Shown here piece by piece: positions 18,432-44,742 of a DNA stretch of 48,099 nucleotides. The stretch's first letter is position 1. Every line of letters begins with the position of its first letter. Location: IMG/VR virus record IMGVR_UViG_3300021354_000499, positions 1 through 48,099 of that record. One strand, written 5' to 3'. The position numbers were made by a program, and so were the translations under genes. The notes below the pieces were generated by a model, which saw only the letters and a program-made list of their open reading frames with translations, was not told where the DNA came from and searched no databases. This stretch comes from a virus.

Positions 18432-20081
18432 ATGATTTCAGTCGTTAAACGGAATGGGGCACGAGTTCCTATAGACATAAGCAAAATACAAAGACAGGTA
18501 GCACACGATTGTAAAGGCATTGATGGTGTAAGCCCAAGCATGATTGAGATTAAAGCTCAAATTGAACTTCACGACGGAATGTCAACTAAAACTATTGATG
18601 AATTATTATTAAAAGCAATGGTTGATTTAATTGACGAAACTGAAAATCCAGAAATTAACAATACAAACTATCAATATGTTGCAGGTCGACAAAAAGTTTC
18701 AATGCTTCGTAAAGAAGTGTATGGCTCTTATACTCCTCCTAGTTTATACGAAATCGTTAAGAAAAATGTAGATATCGGAATATACTCATCTGAACTACTT
18801 GAGTGGTATACTAAAGAAGAATGGGGAATTATTGATCTATTTTTAGATCACGACAAGGACGAGTCATACACTTATGCGGCAATTGCACAGTTAGCAGAAA
18901 AATATCTAGTTCAAAATCGAGCTACTGGTCAAATATACGAAACTCCGCAAGTGCGATATGCTATTGCAGCCGCGACAGCATATCATAACGAACCAGCGAG
19001 CAAAAGATTAAAATATGTTAAAGAATATTACGAGTGCGCTAGTGATGGTAATTTTACCCTTGCTACTCCTGTTCTTGCTGGCCTTGGAACTCCTACTAAG
19101 CAGTTTAGTAGTTGTGTTCTCATTAGCAGTGATGACACTCTTGACTCCATTTTTGCCTCGGGAGAAATGATGGCAAAATATGCTAGTAAACGTGCTGGCA
19201 TAGGACTAGAGATCGGAAGAGTAAGACCTCTCGGTGCCCCTATTAGAAATGGAGAAATTAAACACACTGGTTTGATTCCTTTCTTAAAGAAATGGCTAAG
19301 CGATTTGAAAAGCTGTTCGCAAGGCGGCATTAGAAATGCATCATGTACTGTTACACTTCCAATTTGGCATGCACAATTTGAAGACTTTATTGTCTTGAAA
19401 AATAATCAAGGTACTGAAGAAAATCGTGTACGCCAAATGGATTACAGTATTGTTTTAAATAAAATGTTTTGGAATAGATATAGAAAAAGTGAAAACATTA
19501 CTTTATTCGACCCACACGAAGTTTCAGATTTATACGAAGCATTTTATAGAGATCAAACAGAATTTGAAGAACTTTATCTAAAATACGAAAAAGACGAAAC
19601 AAAGACAAAAAAAGTATTAACTGCTGAATCAATATTCAATAGTATTTTAAAAGAAAGAACAGATACAGGACGAATTTATCTTATAAACATCGATAATGTT
19701 ATTAATCAAGGACCATTTGATAGTACAACTGATCCTATATATATGTCAAATTTATGTTTAACGGGTGATACCGTTATTCAGATTATGAACACAGACGGGT
19801 CTGTTCAGTCGATATCTCTTGCCAGCTTTGTTGAACAATATGAATTTGGTGCAATGACTGGTGTTAAGGTTAGAAGTTCAAATATTTCAACAGGAGAAGT
19901 TACTTGGAATACTGTAAGCGACGCGGCCAAAACTGCAACGGTAACAGAACTAATTGAAATTGAAGATGAATCGGGTAAAATTATTAGATGTACACCTGAT
20001 CATCAAATATATACAAAGAATCGTGGATATGTTAAGGCCGGCGATTTATTAGAAACAGATGTGTTATGTATGGAAGAATAA
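18432..20081 (+). CDS. nrdA: NrdA N-terminal part fused to split-intein N-half
   Basis: Residues 1-441 are the N-extein of class Ia ribonucleotide reductase alpha: ATP-cone start (VVKRNGARVPIDISKIQRQV) and GLGTPTKQFSSCVLI with the redox Cys equivalent to E. coli C225. The extein ends MSNL; residues 442-549 are the intein N-half, beginning CLTGDTVIQIM and containing the block-B motif CTPDHQIYTKNRGYV. The reading frame then stops. The missing part of NrdA is the next gene. The two extein lengths add to 761 residues, the size I recall for E. coli NrdA. Makes dNTPs from NDPs with NrdB and glutaredoxin. Confidence 0.93.
   Translation: MISVVKRNGARVPIDISKIQRQVAHDCKGIDGVSPSMIEIKAQIELHDGMSTKTIDELLLKAMVDLIDETENPEINNTNYQYVAGRQKVSMLRKEVYGSYTPPSLYEIVKKNVDIGIYSSELLEWYTKEEWGIIDLFLDHDKDESYTYAAIAQLAEKYLVQNRATGQIYETPQVRYAIAAATAYHNEPASKRLKYVKEYYECASDGNFTLATPVLAGLGTPTKQFSSCVLISSDDTLDSIFASGEMMAKYASKRAGIGLEIGRVRPLGAPIRNGEIKHTGLIPFLKKWLSDLKSCSQGGIRNASCTVTLPIWHAQFEDFIVLKNNQGTEENRVRQMDYSIVLNKMFWNRYRKSENITLFDPHEVSDLYEAFYRDQTEFEELYLKYEKDETKTKKVLTAESIFNSILKERTDTGRIYLINIDNVINQGPFDSTTDPIYMSNLCLTGDTVIQIMNTDGSVQSISLASFVEQYEFGAMTGVKVRSSNISTGEVTWNTVSDAAKTATVTELIEIEDESGKIIRCTPDHQIYTKNRGYVKAGDLLETDVLCMEE
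19755..20078 (+). other. Split intein, N-terminal half (108 residues)
   Basis: Starts with Cys (CLTGD) and carries the TxxH block B (C-T-P-D-H). It closely resembles the phage/metagenomic NrdA and NrdJ split inteins I recall (CLTGD start, CTPDH-x-x-YTxNRGYV). No endonuclease domain is present. It splices in trans with the half encoded at 20082-20183. Confidence 0.92.
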
Positions 20082-20183
20082 ATGCTTAAAATAAAAAGAA
20101 TTACAGTAGAACCAACTGATGTGTATGATATTACTGTGCCAGAAACTGAATGTTTTTTTGCTAATGACATATTGGTCCACAAT
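20082..20183 (+). other. Split intein, C-terminal half (34 residues)
   Basis: Starts MLKIKRITVEPTDVYDITV and ends ECFFANDILVHN, followed by the +1 Cys. F-F-A-N-D-I-L-V-H-N is the usual intein block F/G. It begins at the base after the TAA of the N-half gene. Confidence 0.93.
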
Positions 20184-21146
20184 TGCCAAGAAATCCTTTT
20201 ACCTACACGACCATTCCAACGTATTGAAGATCCAAATGGTAGAATCTCGTTATGTACACTAGGAAGCATAAATTGGGGTTCATACCGTAATCCACAAGAT
20301 ATGCGTAAAGCATGTCGTGTGTTGGTCCGGTCACTTAGTAACTTATTAAACTATCAAGACTTCTTAAGTATTCAAAGTAAACTTGCAAATGATGAATTTG
20401 AACCACTTGGTATTGGTATTACTAATTTAGCATATTGGCATGCAAAACGTAACTTTAAATATGGTGACGAAAATGCATTAGCTGAAGTTAAACGATGGAT
20501 GGAACATCAGGCATATTATCTAACTGAAGCAAGCATTGATCTGGCACAAGAACGCGGTGCATGTGAACGTAGTCAATATACCTATTACGGTCGAGGAATA
20601 TTTCCATGGGAAAGACGTTCATCAGGCGTTGACGAATTAACAGATTTTACACCGAGTTTAGATTGGGAACAACTTCGTGTACGTATGAAAGAATTTGGAA
20701 TTCGCAATGCTACATTAATGGCAGTTGCTCCAGTTGAATCTAGCTCAGTTGTTCTAAACTCCACCAATGGTATCGAAATGCCAATGGAATTGATTTCTGT
20801 AAAGGAATCAAAAGCTGGATCGTTTGTACAAGTTGTTCCAGAGTACAAACGTCTTAAGAATCGTTATCAATTAATGTGGGATCAACAAGATTGTATCGGT
20901 TATTTAAAAACTGCGGCTGTACTTGCAGCCTATGTTGATCAATCACTTAGTACAAATACTTTTTATAATCCTGCATTTTTCCAAGAAGGAAAAGTACCAG
21001 CAACACTTATAGCTAAAAACTTAATGTTAGCGTATAAGTGGGGTTTGAAAACGATTTATTACTCATTAATTAACAAGGTCGGTGCTAAAGTTTCAATTGA
21101 ATCAGATACTATTGAAGATGAAGATTGCGAATCTTGTAAACTTTAA
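20082..21146 (+). CDS. nrdA: Split-intein C-half fused to NrdA C-terminal part
   Basis: Residues 1-34 are the intein C-half; residues 35-354 (320) are the C-extein CQEILLPTRP. Its first residue is the thiyl-radical Cys (E. coli C439) and the third the catalytic Glu (E441). RISLCTLGSINWG holds the second redox Cys (C462), LKTIYYSL the radical-transfer Tyr pair, and the tail DCESCKL the C-terminal reducing pair. All known catalytic residues are thus present. The gene starts right after the TAA of the N-part, with no spacer and no endonuclease gene between. Confidence 0.93.
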   Translation: MLKIKRITVEPTDVYDITVPETECFFANDILVHNCQEILLPTRPFQRIEDPNGRISLCTLGSINWGSYRNPQDMRKACRVLVRSLSNLLNYQDFLSIQSKLANDEFEPLGIGITNLAYWHAKRNFKYGDENALAEVKRWMEHQAYYLTEASIDLAQERGACERSQYTYYGRGIFPWERRSSGVDELTDFTPSLDWEQLRVRMKEFGIRNATLMAVAPVESSSVVLNSTNGIEMPMELISVKESKAGSFVQVVPEYKRLKNRYQLMWDQQDCIGYLKTAAVLAAYVDQSLSTNTFYNPAFFQEGKVPATLIAKNLMLAYKWGLKTIYYSLINKVGAKVSIESDTIEDEDCESCKL

Positions 21147-29814: not shown

Positions 29815-30206
29815 CAAGTAAGATTACTTTAATTACACCACCGGATATATTTGAAAATTCAAACTATAGCATATTGTTCATTGGGTTAACTGAAAAAGAT
29901 CAAGACGATGCTAGTCTTTGGTTAGGAAGAAATGATACTTATCCAGAATGTAATTTTTATTATTATCAAGGTGAAAATAATCCGTCCTGGTTACTTTATG
30001 CATTAAATCGTTCGGATATTTCTTTTTTGAATTTTGAATCAAACGATGCTATAATTAATATTATGGGAAGTTATATTTTAAGTCGGCCGAATGTTTATTA
30101 TACTTCAAAAGATGAAAATTTAAAATCACTAATGAGCCATATAAACAACAAATTTGTTCCTAACGTAACAGCATTTTTAGAAAAGGTGTTTAATGACAAA
30201 AGATAG
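29811..30206 (+). CDS. Hypothetical protein before clpX
   Basis: Encodes 131 residues (MTSKITLITPPDIFENSNYS, GLTEKDQDDASLWLGRNDTY, IINIMGSYILSRPNVYY). It looks like a small alpha/beta protein of the type found before ClpX-like and AAA genes in T4-like phages. Overlaps its upstream neighbour by four bases and clpX by 14 bases, so it is co-translated with clpX. Confidence 0.55.
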   Translation: MTSKITLITPPDIFENSNYSILFIGLTEKDQDDASLWLGRNDTYPECNFYYYQGENNPSWLLYALNRSDISFLNFESNDAIINIMGSYILSRPNVYYTSKDENLKSLMSHINNKFVPNVTAFLEKVFNDKR

Positions 30207-32520
30207 TAAACATTCTTGCAATTTTTGTGGGAAAAGCAAAGCAGATGTATCAAAACTTATTGTTGGTGGTGATTTTGCCATTTGTAACGAATGTGTTGAT
30301 TTATGCTCAAGTATTCTTTTAGATGAAAAGATTAAAGACTTTCCTGATCATGATGATAAACAAAAATTTAATCCAAGCAAAATTAAAGATTTCTTAGACC
30401 AATATGTTATCGGGCAAGATCAAGCTAAAATCGCGTTAAGTGTTGGCGTAGCACAACATTTTAAACGTATTAATAGTCCAAGTAAAGATGTTGTAATTGA
30501 AAAAACTAATGTGCTTATGTTAGGACCAACAGGTTGTGGGAAAGCTCAACCATTGCATAGTAAACTTAAAATTCCAAATGGTTGGATAACAATGTCAGAC
30601 GTTAAATTAAATGATATATTATCAATGCCCGATGGGACTGAAGCAAAAGTAAGTGGGATTTTTCCACAAGGTAAAAAATCAATTTATAAAATTACTTTTT
30701 CTGATGGGCGAACTGCAGAATCATGTGACGAACATTTGTGGAAAGTATATAATGTAAATTGGAAAAATAAATGGAAAGTACTTCCATTATCAGATTTAAA
30801 CAAATGTTTGTCAACTTCAAAAGGAAACTTATATATTCCGTTGTTATCTGTTAATGAAAATGAAGTTGATAAAGAGTTACCGTTAGATCCATATACGTTA
30901 GGTGCATTAATCGGTGATGGCGGATTTACTAATAAAGGTGTAGGTTTTTCAAGTTCTGATCAATTTATCTTAGATAGGGTACAACACGGAATTGGAACAG
31001 ATTATTATCTACGCAAACACCCTTCATCTAAATATGATTATGCTATACGATCTGTAATATCTCAAAATTTTATAAAAGGTGAAACTGTAATAAAAGGAGT
31101 AACTAAAAATAAAATAAAATATGCATTACTTGATTTAGGCTTAATAGGAAAACATAGCGATGAGAAATTTATTCCAGAAATTTATAAACTATCATCATTT
31201 AATCAAAAATTAGAATTAATTCAAGGTCTAATTGATACAGATGGCTATGTTTGTAAAAAAGGTAGAGTAGAATTTACCACTACAAGTATCCAACTTGCAA
31301 ATGATGTGACCGAAATTATTCAAAGTATTGGTGGCATTGCAAAAATTTCAAAAAGTACAAATCGTACTTATATGTATAAAGGATCGCAAACACGGTGTAA
31401 AGATAGTTATAACGTATCAATTCGATATAAAAATCCAAAAGATTTAGTATCGTTGCCAAGAAAAAAAGAACGGTTGTCCGATATATATCAATATTCCGAT
31501 TCTTCTAAAAATAGAGAACTTAAATTAAAAATTAATAAAATTGAGTATGTTGGTGAGCTAGATGCTCAATGTATCTATATTGATCACCCTGAGCATTTAT
31601 ATATAACCGACAATTATGTAGTAACTCATAATACAATGCTTGCTAAAAAAGTTGCAGAGTTTTTAGATATTCCATTTGCAGTTTGTGATGCAACTGGTCT
31701 TACCGAAGCAGGATATGTAGGTGATGATGTTGAAAGTATCTTATCACGATTATTAAGTGTTGCTGATGGTGATATTGAAAAAGCTCAACGAGGAATTATA
31801 TATATCGACGAAATTGATAAAATTGCACGTAAAGGTGAAAATGTTTCAATTACACGTGATGTAAGTGGTGAAGGGGTACAACAAGCACTATTAAAAATTG
31901 TTGAAGGTAGTATCGTGCGTGTTCCGTCAACTGATAAACGTAAACACCCGAAAGGTGAAATGATCGAATTAGACACTACAAATATTTTGTTTATTTGCGG
32001 AGGAGCGTTCGTTGGAATTGATAAAATTATCGGACGTAACAAAGAACCAGCAAGCATCGGATTTAGTAGTCCCGCACGTAGTAAAAAAGATACATCAATG
32101 ATGTTTGATCATTGTACTCCTAAAGATTTAATGAGTTTTGGATTGATTCCAGAATTTATTGGTCGATTTGGATTAACAGTAAATGTAAACGAACTATCGG
32201 TTGAAGAATTAGTTCAGATTCTTAAAGAACCAAAAAACAGTATAATTCAACAATATCAGTATATTTTCAAATTAGACGGAGTTAATCTTAAATTTGACGA
32301 AGATGCATTAACTGTTATTGCTGAGAAAGCAAAAGAATTAAAAACAAATGCTCGTGGTCTTAAACAGATAATCGAGAAACTGCTATTACAATACCAATTT
32401 GAAGCAATGGATCTTGCTGAAAGAGGACTTGAACAAATTGTAATTAGCAAGGAAACAGCCCAAGGTGGCAAAGCAGTACTAATTTTTAAGAAAGAGAATG
32501 GCAAAAAATTATCAAAATAA
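30193..32520 (+). CDS. clpX: ClpX protease ATPase subunit with an intein
   Basis: A 775-residue precursor. Residues 1-50 form the zinc-binding domain (CNFCGKS ... CNECVDLC). Residues 118-480 are an intein inserted in the Walker A motif between Lys and Thr (GPTGCGK | TMLAKK). Removing 363 residues leaves 412, the normal ClpX length (~424). Walker B ([11 protein letters not shown]), the [13 protein letters not shown] motif and sensor-like GRFG remain. ClpX unfolds proteins for ClpP, including tmRNA-tagged ones. No ClpP is seen here, so it may use host ClpP. Overlaps upstream and rpsU genes. Confidence 0.95.
30544..31632 (+). other. LAGLIDADG intein in ClpX Walker A (363 residues)
   Basis: Starts with Ala ([14 protein letters not shown]) in place of Cys/Ser and ends YVVTHN before the +1 Thr of ClpX. 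Block B lies near SCDEHLW (a variant). The LAGLIDADG (DOD) motifs are [10 protein letters not shown] and [12 protein letters not shown], so it is a full homing intein. Codon use matches the rest of clpX. Confidence 0.93.
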
Positions 32521-33785: not shown

Positions 33786-34795
33786 ATGGCTAGTATAGCA
33801 GAAAAAGTAAAAAGTGATGTTGCAGAAACACCGCTTTTAAATGTAAGAAATTTATTATTAGCAGCATCGCTTTATATTTTATTTTATGGTTGGGTTCGTT
33901 GGTATGAAGGTGTATATGGATGGTCAGCAGGTTTAGACTCATTTGCACCAGAATTTGAAACTTACTGGATGAACTTTTTATATATTGAGTTTGTTTTAGA
34001 AACAGCAACAGCTGGTATTTTGTGGGGTTACATCTGGAAAACACGTGATCGTAAAGTTGCATCAATTACTCCACGAGAGGAGTTGAGAAGACATTTTACT
34101 CACTGGACTTGGTTGGTATCTTATGCAATCGCTGTATATTACGGTGCAAGCTATTTTACTGAGCAAGATGGAACATGGCATCAAACAATTGTTCGTGATA
34201 CTGACTTTACTCCAAGTCATATTATTGAATTTTATTTGAGCTATCCAATTTATATTATTACAGGTGTAGCATCTTTTCTATATGCTAGAACAAGATTACC
34301 AGCATACCAAAATGGGTTATCATTAATGTACTTGGTATCAGTCGTTGGTCCATTTATGATCTTACCAAATGTCGGGTTAAATGAATGGGGTCACACATTT
34401 TGGTTTATGGAAGAGTTGTTTGTCGCTTAATTAAATGGGCGCGTATAGTAGCAATATTATAATGAAAACTTTGTGAAAACGGTGGATATCCAGAACGGAC
34501 AATACCGTGCTAAGTCTCGATAGAGAAAAGTGTAACGACTAGTCGAAAGACGTACATCCAAGTGGATGGAAGCGCAAAGCAACTACACGTAGTTGAAGAG
34601 ATAGTCTACTCTATATAGGAATATATAGCAGTTCATAAGAGAACGGTATAAGAATAACGAACTTATGCGAATATAATGCCTTTACATTACGGATTTGTTT
34701 TCTTCGGATGGGCTACACTTGGTGTATTAGGTGTAGTAAATACAGAAGTACAAGCAATATCTAAATTGCTTAAAAAAGATTTAGTGAATATCTAA
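33786..34795 (+). CDS. pmoC: Particulate methane monooxygenase subunit C, intron-split
   Basis: Two exons (33786-34427, 34679-34795) make a 252-residue PmoC. Multiple membrane helices; YEGVYGWSAGLDSFAPEFET and the conserved Cu ligands D128, H132 and H145 (DGTWH ... TPSH) match the Cu_C site, and N199, H203 (exon 1) with H217 (exon 2: PLHY) match the Cu_D site (M. capsulatus N227, H231, H245, as I recall). All are present, so the spliced protein may be active. PmoC is the subunit nearest the putative active site of methane oxidation. Sequence looks type I methanotroph-like; the C-terminus is a few residues shorter than host PmoC. No pmoA or pmoB is in the window, so it would have to join host PmoA and PmoB. 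Confidence 0.93.
34428..34678 (+). other. Group I intron in pmoC (251 bp, no ORF)
   Basis: The 5' exon ends in U (GTCGCT) and the intron ends in G (TATAATG), as in group I introns. Exon CGCT (34424-34427) pairs with GGCG (34438-34441), with the required U.G wobble. Core motifs are visible: an R-like GTGTAACGACTAGTCG (from 34530) and an S-like GAAGAGATAGTCT (34594-34607), whose GACTA/TAGTC halves form P7. Splicing joins codons GCT and CCT cleanly (V-A | P-L-H-Y). A mobility protein is absent, so movement would need help in trans. Confidence 0.88.
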
Positions 34796-39152: not shown

Positions 39153-39187
39153 AATAACCCATCTTCTTATTGTTGATGGGTTATTTT
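39153..39187. terminator. Bidirectional terminator between converging genes
   Basis: AATAACCCATC pairs with GATGGGTTATT (39153-39163 with 39175-39185) and is flanked by T/A-rich tracts on both sides. It ends the AAA+ gene and overlaps the end of the minus-strand GDPD-like gene. Confidence 0.8.
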
Positions 39188-39627
39188 TTATCTAAAAGTC
39201 TTGCAGGATAATCTGTACAGATACCAAAACAATTCTTATCAATATTTTCAAACAGTGGATCATTCCATTCAGGCATAACCATTACACTATTTTTTGTCAA
39301 AGTCTTTCCTGGGTAAGTCCAAATATATCTGTGGCTTGTTAATGTAAATTGATCTTCTTCATGCCAAAAATAATTAAGATTAGTTTTAGTCAACCAATAT
39401 AACGCATCTAAGTTTTTGGCATGAATCCATAATCCAGCAGTTGCAATAAATCCTAGCTCAATTTCATAGGTTGGAAGATCATGTCCCAACCATAATTTAT
39501 CATCAATTACCCAAAGATCAATTTCACAATCGTATCCTTGTTTAAGTGCAAGCTCAATTTGTCTTGGATTATTTTCTATATCTTTATTTGGACCATTAAC
39601 AAGACCTCGATGTGCAATTAGTATCAT
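39181..39627 (-). CDS. GDPD-like (glycerophosphodiester phosphodiesterase fold) protein
   Basis: A 148-residue minus-strand protein: MILIAHRGLVNGPNKDIEN (H-R-G with the usual E/N), then GYDCEIDLWVIDDKLWLGHD (E-x-D-L-W ... G-H-D), matching the TIM-barrel GDPD core. It is short for this family (usually ~240), so the rest of the barrel may be missing or replaced. It overlaps the RuBisCO-like gene by four bases, so the two are co-translated. Phosphodiester bond cleavage is likely, substrate unknown. Confidence 0.7.
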   Translation of the reverse strand: MILIAHRGLVNGPNKDIENNPRQIELALKQGYDCEIDLWVIDDKLWLGHDLPTYEIELGFIATAGLWIHAKNLDALYWLTKTNLNYFWHEEDQFTLTSHRYIWTYPGKTLTKNSVMVMPEWNDPLFENIDKNCFGICTDYPARLLDKK

Positions 39628-40817
39628 TTAATTAAACCCCATTTTGTAATTGCTTGATAATATTCAGGACCATATGTTTTATCAATCGATTGACGCATTG
39701 CTAAAGCACCTGATAATGTTCCTCCTGGATGTCCATGAACTGCTCCGCCTACATTTGCTAAAAAATCATTTCCTGTTAAACTTACAATTTTTTCAACCAG
39801 TCCAGGATGAAATCCACAACTTAATACTGGTAATGTATTACCAGCACGTAATACATTAATACTTTCTGTTAGCTCTTTTGGATCGTCGTTGCTGTATCCA
39901 CCTAACATACCAGTTTGTATAGTATCAACACCCATCATTGTAGCAAGTTGGCAAATAACTGGCCATGCAATACTAAATCTATGTTTAGCATCTGTCATTA
40001 ATTTATCACCAGATTTTTGAAAATGAAGAAATAAAGGCAAATCTAATTGACGAATCGCATTATATACTCCTAATCCACTAAAGACATTGATATGTACTCC
40101 ATTACCACCTAATTCTGCAACTCTTTTAACACGATCAATAATCACATGATGATCAGCATTAACAGTATGACAAAAAACAACTTTACGACTTTGTTTTGCA
40201 AGATAGTTAGCAATAATATCAACCCTGCGTTCTAATGGAGCACACACAGGATTTGACATAATTTCGTCTTCTTTAATGAAATCTGCACCACCATCAACTT
40301 GTTGTTTTACCATTTCTAATAATACTTCAGGAGTAATACCAATTTTTGGTTTAACAATGCTACCAAATAACGGTTTATCAAATTGACCTGTAAATTGGCG
40401 TATTCCACTTAGACCAAATTTAGGTCCTTTAAAATACCTTGTAACTGTTTCCGGTAATTCTAACTTAATTAGTCGACAAGAAGTAACACAATCAATATCA
40501 ACATGTCCGCCCATTAATTGGCAAATTAGATGACTTATACCATCTGTTGCCCAATCAGTATTTGCAACAGGAAATGCAATTTCAACTGTTCCAATTTTAG
40601 ACTGTTTTAAAATTTCTTCTTCGGCAAGAATTATACAACTATGATTTTCAAATATTTCATCAGTTTCCCATTCATTTCGAACATTTGGATTACCAACGCT
40701 CTGGCCAATTGCAATATTCCATGCAGCATCATTTAAACTAGTATTGCTTGTTAAATCATACGTAGCAATAAAATACTTGTTTAAATCAATTTCATTTCTT
40801 TCTCTATAAAACTTCAT
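39624..40817 (-). CDS. RuBisCO-like protein (form IV)
   Basis: A 397-residue RuBisCO large-subunit homologue. KPKIG (K156/K158, equal to spinach K175/K177) and GGADFIKEDE (K182, D184, E185 at the carbamylation/metal site) are conserved, with HRF for H294. Loop 6 reads QTGMLGGYSND with no Lys for K334 and no His for H327, so it is not a true carboxylase. Form IV RLPs act as enolases, isomerases or other C-C/C-O enzymes of sugar or methylthio compounds. Overlaps the cupin gene upstream by 14 bases and the GDPD-like gene downstream. Confidence 0.9.
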   Translation of the reverse strand: MKFYRERNEIDLNKYFIATYDLTSNTSLNDAAWNIAIGQSVGNPNVRNEWETDEIFENHSCIILAEEEILKQSKIGTVEIAFPVANTDWATDGISHLICQLMGGHVDIDCVTSCRLIKLELPETVTRYFKGPKFGLSGIRQFTGQFDKPLFGSIVKPKIGITPEVLLEMVKQQVDGGADFIKEDEIMSNPVCAPLERRVDIIANYLAKQSRKVVFCHTVNADHHVIIDRVKRVAELGGNGVHINVFSGLGVYNAIRQLDLPLFLHFQKSGDKLMTDAKHRFSIAWPVICQLATMMGVDTIQTGMLGGYSNDDPKELTESINVLRAGNTLPVLSCGFHPGLVEKIVSLTGNDFLANVGGAVHGHPGGTLSGALAMRQSIDKTYGPEYYQAITKWGLIK

Positions 40818-41127
40818 ATTTGTCCTTTGGTAATGATGGGGTTTTAATACATAATACTTTACAATCTTCTAAAAAGATAGGATCTGCTACTTCATTTGGT
40901 TCAAAAATAAAAACATCTCCTGCATTAATTTCTTGATCTTGAATTGTCATTTTGCCTTCTATTAATACATTATATTCTGTAGCGATTGCATGGTAGTGAG
41001 CAGGCCAATTTTCTCCTTTAATATGAGTTAATATACCAACTTCAAAATCTGATGTTTTTAAGATAGAAGGTTCAAAATCTCCAATAAGCCACCCTCTGTA
41101 AAATGTATTTAATTTATATGTTTTCAT
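40804..41127 (-). CDS. Cupin-fold protein, first gene of the RLP operon
   Basis: A 107-residue minus-strand protein. WPAHYHAIATEYNVLIEGKM gives the H-x-H ... E metal set of the first cupin motif; the second (EINAGDVFIFEPNEV) lacks the usual His. A small cupin could bind a metal or a sugar ligand and help the enzyme after it. Its stop overlaps the RLP start. A divergent glycosyltransferase gene begins 77 bp away, so the space between holds both leaders. Confidence 0.75.
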   Translation of the reverse strand: MKTYKLNTFYRGWLIGDFEPSILKTSDFEVGILTHIKGENWPAHYHAIATEYNVLIEGKMTIQDQEINAGDVFIFEPNEVADPIFLEDCKVLCIKTPSLPKDKYEVL

Positions 41128-41203: not shown

Positions 41204-42022
41204 ATGACCGGTATTTCTTTTGTGATTACAACTTCAGGAACAAATGATAGTGAAGTTGAAAAAATTATTAATAGTATTGAATTATTAAATATGGTAGATT
41301 ATGAAGTTGTAATTGTTGGGGGGCAAAAAACATCAATTAATCGACAAAATTGTATACATATCCCGTTTGATGAAAGTCAAAAACCTGCTCCTTGGATAAC
41401 AAAAAAGAAAAATATAGGTTCAGCTGTTAGCAAATATGATATAAATGTAATAATGCACGATTATCATGTCTTTGATCCATCTTGGTATAACGAATTTGAA
41501 AAATTTGGTACAGATTGGGATATTTGTATTAATTTAGTTAAATCTCCGCCATCACAAGGAAGTCAGCGAGGAAATGGTTGGAGAGCTGGACCTATCCCTG
41601 GTTATCCTGAAATTCCATACTGCATGACTATTCCGTGGGATATAGATTGTTTTGTTCCTTATATGGGTATACAAGGTTCATATTGGGTTTGCAAAAAATC
41701 AGTAATGCAAGAACAACCATTAAACGAAACTTTACTTTGGGGGCAAGAAGACGATGTAGAATGGTGGCCTCGAGTTGTTCCAGGGTTTGGCGGAGTGTTG
41801 GATGAAAATCCAAAATATAAAATTGTTTCAAACGAAAATTGCATAGTTCATGCAATAAAAGAAAAACCACTTTATCCAGGAAATCCAGACTTTGAAGCAA
41901 TGCAACGTCAATTAGATCCATTATGGAATTGGTTAAGAGAAGGGAACAGAAGACCTGGAGTTTTTCATTATGAAAAATCAATTAATAAAGTTATAACAAC
42001 AATCGGTTTAGAGAATTCTTGA
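41204..42022 (+). CDS. Glycosyltransferase family 2-like protein
   Basis: Encodes 272 residues: the GT-A start ISFVITTSGTNDSEVEKIINS, YEVVIVGG, then VIMHDYHVFDPSWY (D-x-H/D-type metal motif) and LLWGQEDDVEWWPRV (E-D motif). It transfers a sugar, perhaps to a phage or host surface molecule. Divergent from the RLP operon. The acceptor cannot be told. Confidence 0.72.
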   Translation: MTGISFVITTSGTNDSEVEKIINSIELLNMVDYEVVIVGGQKTSINRQNCIHIPFDESQKPAPWITKKKNIGSAVSKYDINVIMHDYHVFDPSWYNEFEKFGTDWDICINLVKSPPSQGSQRGNGWRAGPIPGYPEIPYCMTIPWDIDCFVPYMGIQGSYWVCKKSVMQEQPLNETLLWGQEDDVEWWPRVVPGFGGVLDENPKYKIVSNENCIVHAIKEKPLYPGNPDFEAMQRQLDPLWNWLREGNRRPGVFHYEKSINKVITTIGLENS

Positions 42023-43077: not shown

Positions 43078-43531
43078 TAAATGAACAACATTCACCATTA
43101 GAGCTCGCACAGGCTAACTTCGTGTGCCAATGACAACGGAACCGTTTGGTTGCCGGGACTGAACTGCTGTGGTGGCAGGAACTTAGTGACTATCCTTAAC
43201 AGGACGAAGATCAGATATGCCTTCATAAAACTGGTTTCGCTATTTGAAGAATTTTAGTAAAGGCTTAATGAAGGGACTGTGTGCCCTACGTTGTACTGCA
43301 AGACTGATATTTGTAGTATAACCGCCGTCGTATAAAGACGCAACTCGAGGTACCGGACGACCGCCTCTGTAATGTTGTAATATCAGGACTGTAAAGAACT
43401 CAGATAATGTTTCTTTTATCACTTTGCCCTGTCTGGGCAAAGTGTGACCATTGAATCTAGATAATATATTCAGTGTCAGTTTTAAAAAATGTGATGAGTG
43501 CAAACGAAATCACAAGTGAGCTTAAGCTCAC
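43078..43531 (+). ncRNA. Large putative structured ncRNA (~450 nt)
   Basis: No coding frame is convincing on either strand. Many hairpins are visible: GCACA/TGTGC near 43106-43126, CGGAACC/GGTTGCCG near 43137, CTGC/GCAG near 43170, CCTTCAT/ATGAAGG, AGGG/CCCT, and a perfect CACTTTGCCC-TGTCT-GGGCAAAGTG (43420-43444), ending in GTGAGCTT-AAGCTCAC (43516-43531) before hemA. The strong promoter upstream, GC-richer sequence and long-range complementarity support a structured RNA. It does not match my recall of RNase P, 6S, tmRNA or a group I intron; relatives of large phage RNAs such as ROOL or GOLLD are possible but unproved. Confidence 0.6.
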
Positions 43532-44742
43532 TATTCAAACTTATTAAATGCTTCTTTCAAACTCTCAGCAAGATAGTAAATATCTGCTTCTGTATGATTA
43601 GGTGTTGGGCAAGCTCTCAATCTTTCAGTTCCCCAAGGTACCGTTGGAAAATTTATAGGTTGTAAGTAAATTCCTTTTTCATCTAAAAGATAATCACTTA
43701 TAGATTTACATTTCTTTGCATCTCGAACCATAATAGGGACAATATGTCCTCCTTCAGAAAGAGGATTTATTTCTAAGCCATTTGCTTTTAAATGTTCTCT
43801 AGTTGCTTGAGCAATACTCATTATTTTAGTTCGTAAGTTAGGTTGATCTTGTACATATTTTACACTTGCTAGGGCTCCTGCACATAATACAGGTGCAAGA
43901 GAAGTAGAAAAAATTAACCCTTGTGCATAACTGCGTATCATGTCAATTAGGTCGCGGCCTGCTGCAATATATCCACCCTGAACACCAAAACCTTTTGCAA
44001 GTGTACCTTGTATAATGTCAACTCCGTCTACACATTTTTGTTCTTCAGCAATTCCTGCTCCTCTAGGTCCATATAGACCTACAGCATGAACTTCATCAAC
44101 ATATACCATTGCTCCATATAAACGAGCAATTTCACATACATCACTTATAAGACCCTTATCACCATCCATACTATAAACACCTTCTAATGCAATTATAGGT
44201 TGTACATTTTGATCAAGACTTTTAAGTATTTCCTTTAGATGTTCTAGATCATTATGTTTCCATATTGTACGAGGTACTTTACTTGACTTAATACCTACAA
44301 TCATTGAATTATGGTTTTGAGCATCACTTATATAATGTACATTAGGTAGAATCATACCTAATACGCTTAGTGTGCTTTGATTAGCAACGTATCCGCTTGT
44401 AAACGTAAGTGCAGCAGTCTTATCATGTAAAGTTGCTAATTCACGCTCTAAGGCAACATGATAGTGTGTTGTTCCGCTTATGTTACGAGTTCCACCTGAC
44501 CCAGCACCTGCGGTATCTAATACTGTATGCATTGCATCAAGTACAACTTTATGCTGGCCCATTCCTAGATAGTCATTTGAACACCAGTTTGTTATTTGTT
44601 TAATGTTATAACGTCCATACCAAATAGCTTTTGGAAAATCACCTTTTTGGCGAAGGATGTCCGTGAATACTCTGTAGTTTCCTTCTGAACGAAGTTTTTC
44701 TAAACTAGCAGCAATTGCGTCTTGTGTTTTTGGTTTAATCAT
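43531..44742 (-). CDS. hemA: 5-aminolevulinate synthase (ALAS)
   Basis: A 403-residue minus-strand alpha-oxoamine synthase. GAGSGGTRNISGTTHYHVAL, YVDEVHAVGLYGPRGAG (Asp and His that hold PLP) and GTLAKGFGVQGGYIAAG (PLP Lys250), plus the ALAS-type RACPTPNHTEADI end, fit ALAS rather than KBL or AONS. It joins glycine and succinyl-CoA to make 5-aminolevulinate for haem. The S-D-A-Q-N-H-N-S motif differs slightly from the usual S-D-E-L-N-H-A-S. Full family length. There is no obvious Shine-Dalgarno. It is one of few haem genes known in phages, from memory. Confidence 0.9.
   Translation of the reverse strand: MIKPKTQDAIAASLEKLRSEGNYRVFTDILRQKGDFPKAIWYGRYNIKQITNWCSNDYLGMGQHKVVLDAMHTVLDTAGAGSGGTRNISGTTHYHVALERELATLHDKTAALTFTSGYVANQSTLSVLGMILPNVHYISDAQNHNSMIVGIKSSKVPRTIWKHNDLEHLKEILKSLDQNVQPIIALEGVYSMDGDKGLISDVCEIARLYGAMVYVDEVHAVGLYGPRGAGIAEEQKCVDGVDIIQGTLAKGFGVQGGYIAAGRDLIDMIRSYAQGLIFSTSLAPVLCAGALASVKYVQDQPNLRTKIMSIAQATREHLKANGLEINPLSEGGHIVPIMVRDAKKCKSISDYLLDEKGIYLQPINFPTVPWGTERLRACPTPNHTEADIYYLAESLKEAFNKFE

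Follow-up and report, generated by a model that had tools for sequence, protein, structure and literature searches.

A phage RuBisCO-like protein encoded in a putative nucleotide-sugar module for glycan assembly

Introduction

What does a RuBisCO-like protein (RLP) do in a phage? The question is raised by IMG/VR virus record IMGVR_UViG_3300021354_000499, a fragment of 48,099 bases that was analysed over its whole length (the window). As described in an initial annotation, three overlapping open reading frames (ORFs) occupy positions 39181–41127 of the minus strand in the order cupin, RLP and GDPD-like protein. The first operon gene encodes a small cupin of 107 residues (40804–41127), the second the RLP, with 397 residues (39624–40817; Pfam RuBisCO_large, 1.5e-33), and the third a compact protein of 148 residues (39181–39627), which an AlphaFold model and sequence motifs assign to the GDPD fold. 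The cupin and RLP genes overlap by 14 nt, and the RLP and GDPD-like genes by 4 nt (ATGA).

To our knowledge, characterised RLPs work in salvage or catabolism, and we know of no RuBisCO-type enzyme that makes an activated sugar for surface glycans. Nevertheless, we think it rather probable that the operon belongs to a module, carried by phages, that makes nucleotide sugars for glycan assembly and in which the RLP isomerises or epimerises a sugar phosphate for a sugar-nucleotidyltransferase (NT). That the RLP has a role in a glycan module is well supported, and synthesis of a modified glycan, which the initial annotation had put forward as one possibility, is the role that the data support best.

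Results

The RLP belongs to a conserved gene module

The RLP is encoded in at least 170 confirmed IMG/VR stretches. Counts of viral loci given here refer to the best 80 of these, whose RLPs show 54–84% identity and whose contigs reach 274 kb; neighbour families were assigned by hidden Markov model (HMM) searches. In 77 of the 80 loci, the RLP gene has an NT gene within 3 kb on its own strand. The same holds for a GDPD-like gene in 62 loci (66 contain one in all), and a cupin gene lies within 3 kb in 51. The usual orders are NT–cupin–RLP, with GDPD-like further downstream, and GDPD-like–NT–RLP, and the module genes often overlap. In the closest relative (locus L002), the RLP of which is 84% identical, the order is NT–cupin–RLP. 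The triplet of cupin, RLP and GDPD-like protein is thus conserved elsewhere, but as first described it was incomplete, since its steadiest partner is the NT, which is not in the window. Genes around the module encode glycosyltransferase-like proteins, FkbM and other methyltransferases, epimerases and WavE.

The combination of NT, cupin, GDPD-like protein and RLP also occurs in SAR11, Elusimicrobia, Azospirillum and other cellular loci, and most cellular members of the family likewise encode the NT close to the RLP. One SAR11 locus (L085) places the module in an O-antigen context: GDPD-like–NT–RLP is flanked on one side by genes for a GDP-mannose dehydratase, a family-4 glycosyltransferase and an O-antigen ligase, and on the other by alanine dehydrogenase/PNT. 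In a second SAR11 locus (L094), the module is chromosomal, since it lies between lepA and gyrB. RmlA-like, DegT and flippase-family genes follow the module in locus L087. Three Legionella species (L102, L103 and L104) carry an RLP–NT pair together with a divergent gene for a LicD-family phosphotransferase, a neighbour that suggests transfer of a phospho-unit from a nucleotide donor. We rejected LicD as a general partner; it is confined to these three loci, which probably represent one inherited cluster.

The recurrence of these neighbours across dozens of contigs is far beyond chance. Glycan cassettes do collect unrelated cargo, and the RLP might be such cargo with some other phage or host function; the cassettes are mosaic, and both gene order and neighbouring glycosyltransferases vary by locus. 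We nevertheless regard this explanation as improbable, given how constantly the NT accompanies the RLP in viruses and cells, often in overlapping genes, the presence of the same core in distant bacteria, and the mutually exclusive replacement of the RLP described below.

Two further kinds of gene were observed in RLP loci. A family that we call GTq (MKIAxxxSGQPRF; phrog_13607, weak DUF7796; e.g., 9188–9874 of L079) occurs in 40 of 113 RLP loci and probably represents a glycosyltransferase; in L062 (8206–9276), it is fused to a GDPD-like domain. The NT itself is fused to HAD domains in L064 (11554–12951), L057 (4762–6126) and L063 (6583–7689). These domains are of two kinds, N-terminal beta-PGM-like and C-terminal KdsC/PNKP-like, and point to more variants of the module.

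RpiB or a phosphomannomutase-type HAD takes the place of the RLP in other loci

The RLP is missing from isolated cyanophages that carry the GDPD-like and cupin genes. In cyanophage Bellamy, the gene directly before the cupin encodes a fusion of an NT and an RpiB/LacAB isomerase (PF02502, 3.9e-32), and this fusion was found again in about 60 IMG/VR loci. The Bellamy-type module (NT–RpiB fusion, cupin, GTq, double NT and GDPD-like protein) shares its NT, cupin, GDPD-like and GTq families with the RLP loci but has an RpiB domain in place of the RLP. Its genes were formerly annotated as hypothetical proteins and a phosphatase, the latter being the NT–RpiB fusion itself (gene 206; L184, 2166–3323).

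Cupin-anchored scans of IMG/VR gave 151 loci. Across all cupin-bearing loci of the analysis, searched with one HMM per family, an RLP is present in 121, RpiB in 62 and a phosphomannomutase (PMM)-type HAD in 13, and never two of these together. Counted as distinct cupin–NT pairs flanked on each side by 4 kb or more, the numbers are 66, 38 and 10, respectively, with no overlap. RLP-anchored loci likewise contained no RpiB. The PMM-type gene fills the position between cupin and GDPD-like genes in the order NT–cupin–x–GDPD-like, and its product matches PF03332 (up to 3.2e-18) and the structures of human PMM1/2. In a tree of NT and cupin sequences, the PMM clade is nested in RLP-bearing lineages.

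RpiB and PMM enzymes isomerise or mutate sugar phosphates. Since the RLP replaces them beside the same NT, cupin and GDPD-like protein, it most likely prepares a sugar phosphate for the NT.

The remaining cupin loci mostly have genes for a KdsC-like HAD and a PfkB-like protein upstream of NT–cupin–GDPD-like. Plasmid lipopolysaccharide clusters of Pseudomonas and Ruegeria contain an NT, a distant GDPD-like gene, a beta-phosphoglucomutase-like HAD, a further NT, a cupin and WavE, and no RLP; the GDPD-like protein of the window gave no match on plasmids by tblastn. A cupin match on an Acetobacter plasmid was not accepted as a module, as it stands without GDPD-like, HAD, NT or WavE context.

Active site of the RLP

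The RLP matches the RuBisCO large-chain catalytic domain (PF00016) with 116.8 bits (cutoff 30.1). Sequences of forms I and III, MtnW and OiaX served as alignment references, and spinach numbers were assigned by motif. The metal/carbamate triad K201/D203/E204 is kept as Lys182, Asp184 and Glu185, as first noted, and K175 and K177 correspond to Lys156 and Lys158. All five residues are invariant in 26 aligned viral RLPs, and S379 and the glycines of the phosphate site are kept in the family as well. The loop-6 lysine (K334) is replaced by Tyr308 and H294 by Gln267 throughout the family; R295 is changed to Lys or Ser, N123 to Gly, and T65–W66 to N43–P44. The initial annotation had listed loss of the loop-6 lysine and of H327 together. 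The former is a trait of the family, but the latter is a local change, since Gln301 occupies the H327 position in the window's own branch and most relatives have His. At the position of K177, where MtnW and OiaX have Val or Ala, the RLP family has Lys.

Judged by its residues, this pattern speaks against carboxylation and differs from those of MtnW and OiaX. The protein can be classed as form IV in the broad sense, as proposed at the outset, i.e., as a RuBisCO homologue that lacks residues needed for carboxylation. Between pairs of RLPs, dN is 0.05–0.13 and dN/dS is about 0.06–0.07, with dS near saturation; dN is low compared with dS, and the gene is therefore under strong purifying selection.

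Placement of the RLP family

No NCBIfam RuBisCO or RLP model reached its cutoff with the RLP of the window. The RuBisCO models gave 176 of 497 bits (form III), 160 of 438 (PRK04208) and 91 of 489 (PRK13475), MtnW (TIGR03332) gave 136 bits (cutoff 513.6) and OiaX (NF042437) 140 bits (cutoff 700). In a maximum-likelihood tree, the RLP family forms one clade (100/100), apart from MtnW and forms I/III. Its sister group comprises OiaX and the RLPs associated with four-carbon acid sugar kinases (97/90), a relation that involves long branches and comes from a tree that omits the IV-Photo and R. rubrum references. With OiaX, MtnW and form I/III references as the outgroup, cellular RLPs branch first and viral ones are nested among them, which fits a bacterial origin followed by spread in phages.

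Form I, II or III RuBisCO was rejected as an assignment because of the lost Lys334 and His294 and the scores under the cutoffs. MtnW, the 2,3-diketo-5-methylthiopentyl-1-phosphate enolase, shares the RuBisCO fold and metal site, and the triad and both K175/K177 equivalents of the phage RLP speak for a methionine-salvage enolase or an active CO2-fixing RuBisCO. However, loop-6 Lys and H294 are lost, all NCBIfam scores are far under their cutoffs, the clade is separate, and no MtnX-like neighbour was found in the loci, so that we consider either function extremely improbable. The initial annotation had stated that it would fail if the triplet were confined to this locus or if the RLP fell within MtnW and the host lacked the rest of that path; since the triplet recurs elsewhere and the RLP is not an MtnW, it survives on both counts. 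Isoapionate- or methylthio-type substrates, which it had proposed for assays, found no backing, as no partner genes of either pathway were found in the loci.

OiaX deserves closer comparison. It shares the RuBisCO fold and the metal/carbamate triad, and OiaX-type RLPs decarboxylate 3-oxo-isoapionate-4-phosphate (PMC6302742). Within the same module, the RLP might thus decarboxylate or transcarboxylate a 3-oxo sugar-acid phosphate, providing a shortened ketose phosphate for the NT, and the sister relation to OiaX keeps this role open. We rate it as unlikely, though to be taken seriously. OiaX belongs to catabolic operons with a kinase, whereas the neighbours of the phage RLP are NT, cupin and GDPD-like genes, and partial queries of about 100 residues revealed no four-carbon acid sugar kinase among them. 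The K177 equivalent is Ala or Ser in the OiaX clade but is kept in the phage RLP, and the enzymes that substitute for the RLP, RpiB and PMM, are no decarboxylases. Assignment as OiaX itself was rejected on the NF042437 score and the missing kinase.

For the isomerisation that we favour, a precedent exists in the RLP of Rhodospirillum rubrum, a 5-methylthioribulose-1-phosphate 1,3-isomerase whose pathway includes a cupin-superfamily enzyme (PMC6302742). The likeness lies in an RLP that isomerises a ketose phosphate alongside a cupin-superfamily enzyme (PMC6302742). The R. rubrum enzyme, however, serves sulfur salvage, and some loci have the phage cupin but no RLP.

The GDPD-like, cupin and NT proteins

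The GDPD-like protein has no Pfam match at E up to 0.1, nor do two relatives at E up to 1. Across 41 sequences, HR, EN, E-x-D, GHD and HxK motifs and a late Asp are conserved; His6, Arg7, Glu35, Asp37 and His49 are invariant, and Asp50 is nearly so. The AlphaFold model (pLDDT 96.6) gave nothing significant against the PDB with Foldseek alone (best E 0.02). VIA re-alignment yielded 1o1z, a GDPD of T. maritima, as the best match (Z 10.8, rmsd 3.0 over 138 residues); the leading rows are GDPDs and GDPD-fold phospholipases D, and the first clearly different barrel has Z 6.5. The fold and the catalytic HR, E-x-D and HD motifs are shared with the GDPD family, most matched entries of which have about 220–260 residues compared with 148 in the phage protein. 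The model thus depicts the protein as a compact GDPD barrel missed by Pfam.

Such a fold with its catalytic residues would also suit cleavage of a host phosphodiester, with release of a sugar phosphate or polyol phosphate that the RLP and cupin would then process. Use of a host phosphodiester had been suggested initially, and we found nothing in support of it. The GDPD-like gene also accompanies the NT–cupin core where RpiB or PMM replaces the RLP, it occurs in phage and bacterial glycan-synthesis loci, and its fusion to a GTq-family protein suits synthesis better than scavenging. The probability of this scenario is accordingly low, slightly below that of chance cargo. The GDPD-fold protein is kept whichever enzyme fills the slot, so that host lipids are a less likely target for it than the activated or linked unit.

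The cupin matches Pfam under the cutoffs only (Cupin_2, 20.9 of 27.2 bits; Cupin_7, 24.1 of 27), and its HxH...E metal motif is conserved in 25 sequences, with His44 and Glu51 invariant and His46 present in at least 90%. A model of the NT (pLDDT 96.1) is nearest to 4evw (Z 30.0, rmsd 1.9, 229 residues), followed by GlmU, RmlA and UDP-glucose pyrophosphorylases. The NT is therefore modelled as a GlmU/RmlA-type nucleotidyltransferase, a fold match that is silent on the nucleotide or sugar used. In PHROGs, the GDPD-like (phrog_34507) and cupin (phrog_24762) families, as well as the NT and GTq families, are listed with unknown function.

Proposed role of the RLP

The analysis shows that the module is conserved, which folds and catalytic motifs its proteins have, that other sugar-phosphate enzymes replace the RLP, and that the cellular context is one of O-antigen genes. 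From these data we infer the substrate, the exact reaction, the order of steps and the final acceptor, as well as an NT of the window's phage encoded outside the 48 kb. The RLP would bind Mg2+ via a probably carbamylated Lys182 and Asp184/Glu185, and enolisation of the RuBisCO type would isomerise or epimerise a sugar phosphate. The GlmU/RmlA-fold NT, encoded near the RLP in most relatives, would convert the product into a nucleoside diphosphate-activated unit, which glycosyltransferases of the cassette could attach to a glycan of the surface or the virion. A form of this unit that is a phosphodiester or is linked to a nucleotide is the probable target of the compact GDPD-fold protein, and the cupin may be an accessory isomerase or binding protein.

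Several points weigh against this proposal. The 48-kb window lacks an NT, and the nearest characterised relatives by tree, the OiaX clade, are decarboxylases. The NT and cupin tree calls for a total of about four changes in the slot, which makes the exchange a real pattern but one based on few events, and an incoming enzyme does not have to catalyse the same reaction as the one that it replaces.

The Global Ocean Sampling survey reported 65 RuBisCO homologues outside the known forms (PMC1821046). Likened by description only, these resemble the phage RLPs in being marine, in belonging to no known form and in having altered H327 and other active-site residues (PMC1821046). We see an even chance that the RLPs described here are a distinct RuBisCO-fold family of sugar-phosphate isomerases or epimerases that serves a surface-glycan nucleotide-sugar pathway, is interchangeable with RpiB and PMM-type enzymes, is mainly phage-borne with rare SAR11 and other bacterial carriers, and may be the unexplained RuBisCO-like clade of that survey. 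If so, a RuBisCO-fold enzyme in nucleotide-sugar synthesis would widen the chemistry of the superfamily and might give a function to homologues known from ocean metagenomes since 2007. With RpiB or PMM-type enzymes taking its place beside an unchanging NT, the RLP has a reaction that lends itself to a direct test. Annotation pipelines could misread phage RLP genes as carbon fixation.

Distribution in viruses and cells

Phage RLPs are common in metagenomes and absent from sequenced isolates. With the RLPs of the window and of SAR11 as queries, tblastn found none in 50,697 INPHARED phages, and PHROGs contains no RLP family. The view that RLPs are rare in phages agrees with the isolates, yet it does not hold for the IMG/VR stretches counted above. 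A single pass over 84,980 genomes of bacteria and archaea yielded 32 related loci; scores against the viral RLP profile leave a gap between family members (at least about 286 bits) and all other sequences (at most about 204 bits). Cellular carriers are rare: sampling of the SAR11 family gave 2 among 197 genomes, and sampling of the Legionella order, in which carriers are patchy, gave 4 among 94. Phages are the main carriers of the family. A search of open-licence literature, with subscription papers and preprints outside its scope, turned up nothing on viral RuBisCO or on an association of RLPs with O-antigen. The clade is distinct, and its context is undescribed in the literature searched.

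One 'bacterial' RLP locus (L100), on a contig of a Sphingobacteriales metagenome-assembled genome (MAG), has GroES-like, glycosyltransferase and nuclease neighbours and no obvious housekeeping genes, and on account of these neighbours looks like a phage contig binned into the MAG.

Other features of the window

The window encodes a phage exonuclease (phrog_298), a virion structural protein (phrog_14154) and an ATPase (phrog_2376). Where the operon and the ATPase gene converge, a 10-bp perfect inverted repeat with a 12-nt loop (ATAACCCATC / GATGGGTTAT; 39153–39184), read from the sequence, is a possible bidirectional terminator. A terminator scan, for which the 12-nt loop is too long, gave nothing, and promoter and terminator scans performed no better than on shuffled sequences.

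The divergent ORF at 41204–42022 (plus strand) had been called a glycosyltransferase. It has no match to a Pfam or PDB family, which leaves the label unproven, and shows only weak similarity (27–35%) to ORFs that neighbour the RLP gene of L032 and L043. Its membership in the module is uncertain.

An AmoC/PmoC subunit is encoded at 33786–34430 (plus strand; NCBIfam bacterial AmoC, 347 bits, cutoff 319). Relatives were found in 119 IMG/VR stretches, and none in INPHARED or in 12 RLP-phage records; freshwater phages with pmoC are already known. A 5-aminolevulinate synthase, unusual in a phage, is encoded at 43531–44742 (minus strand; TIGR01821, 538.6 bits, cutoff 338.55), and, taken together with the AmoC gene, may point to the host.

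Two inteins were also observed. In NrdA (18432–21146, plus strand), an intein splits the gene into two abutting ORFs, with a stop at 20081 and an ATG at 20082, at the apparent junction of the N- and C-terminal intein parts, and is a candidate for a naturally split intein. ClpX (30193–32520, plus strand; 775 residues) contains a large in-frame intein after GPTGCGK.
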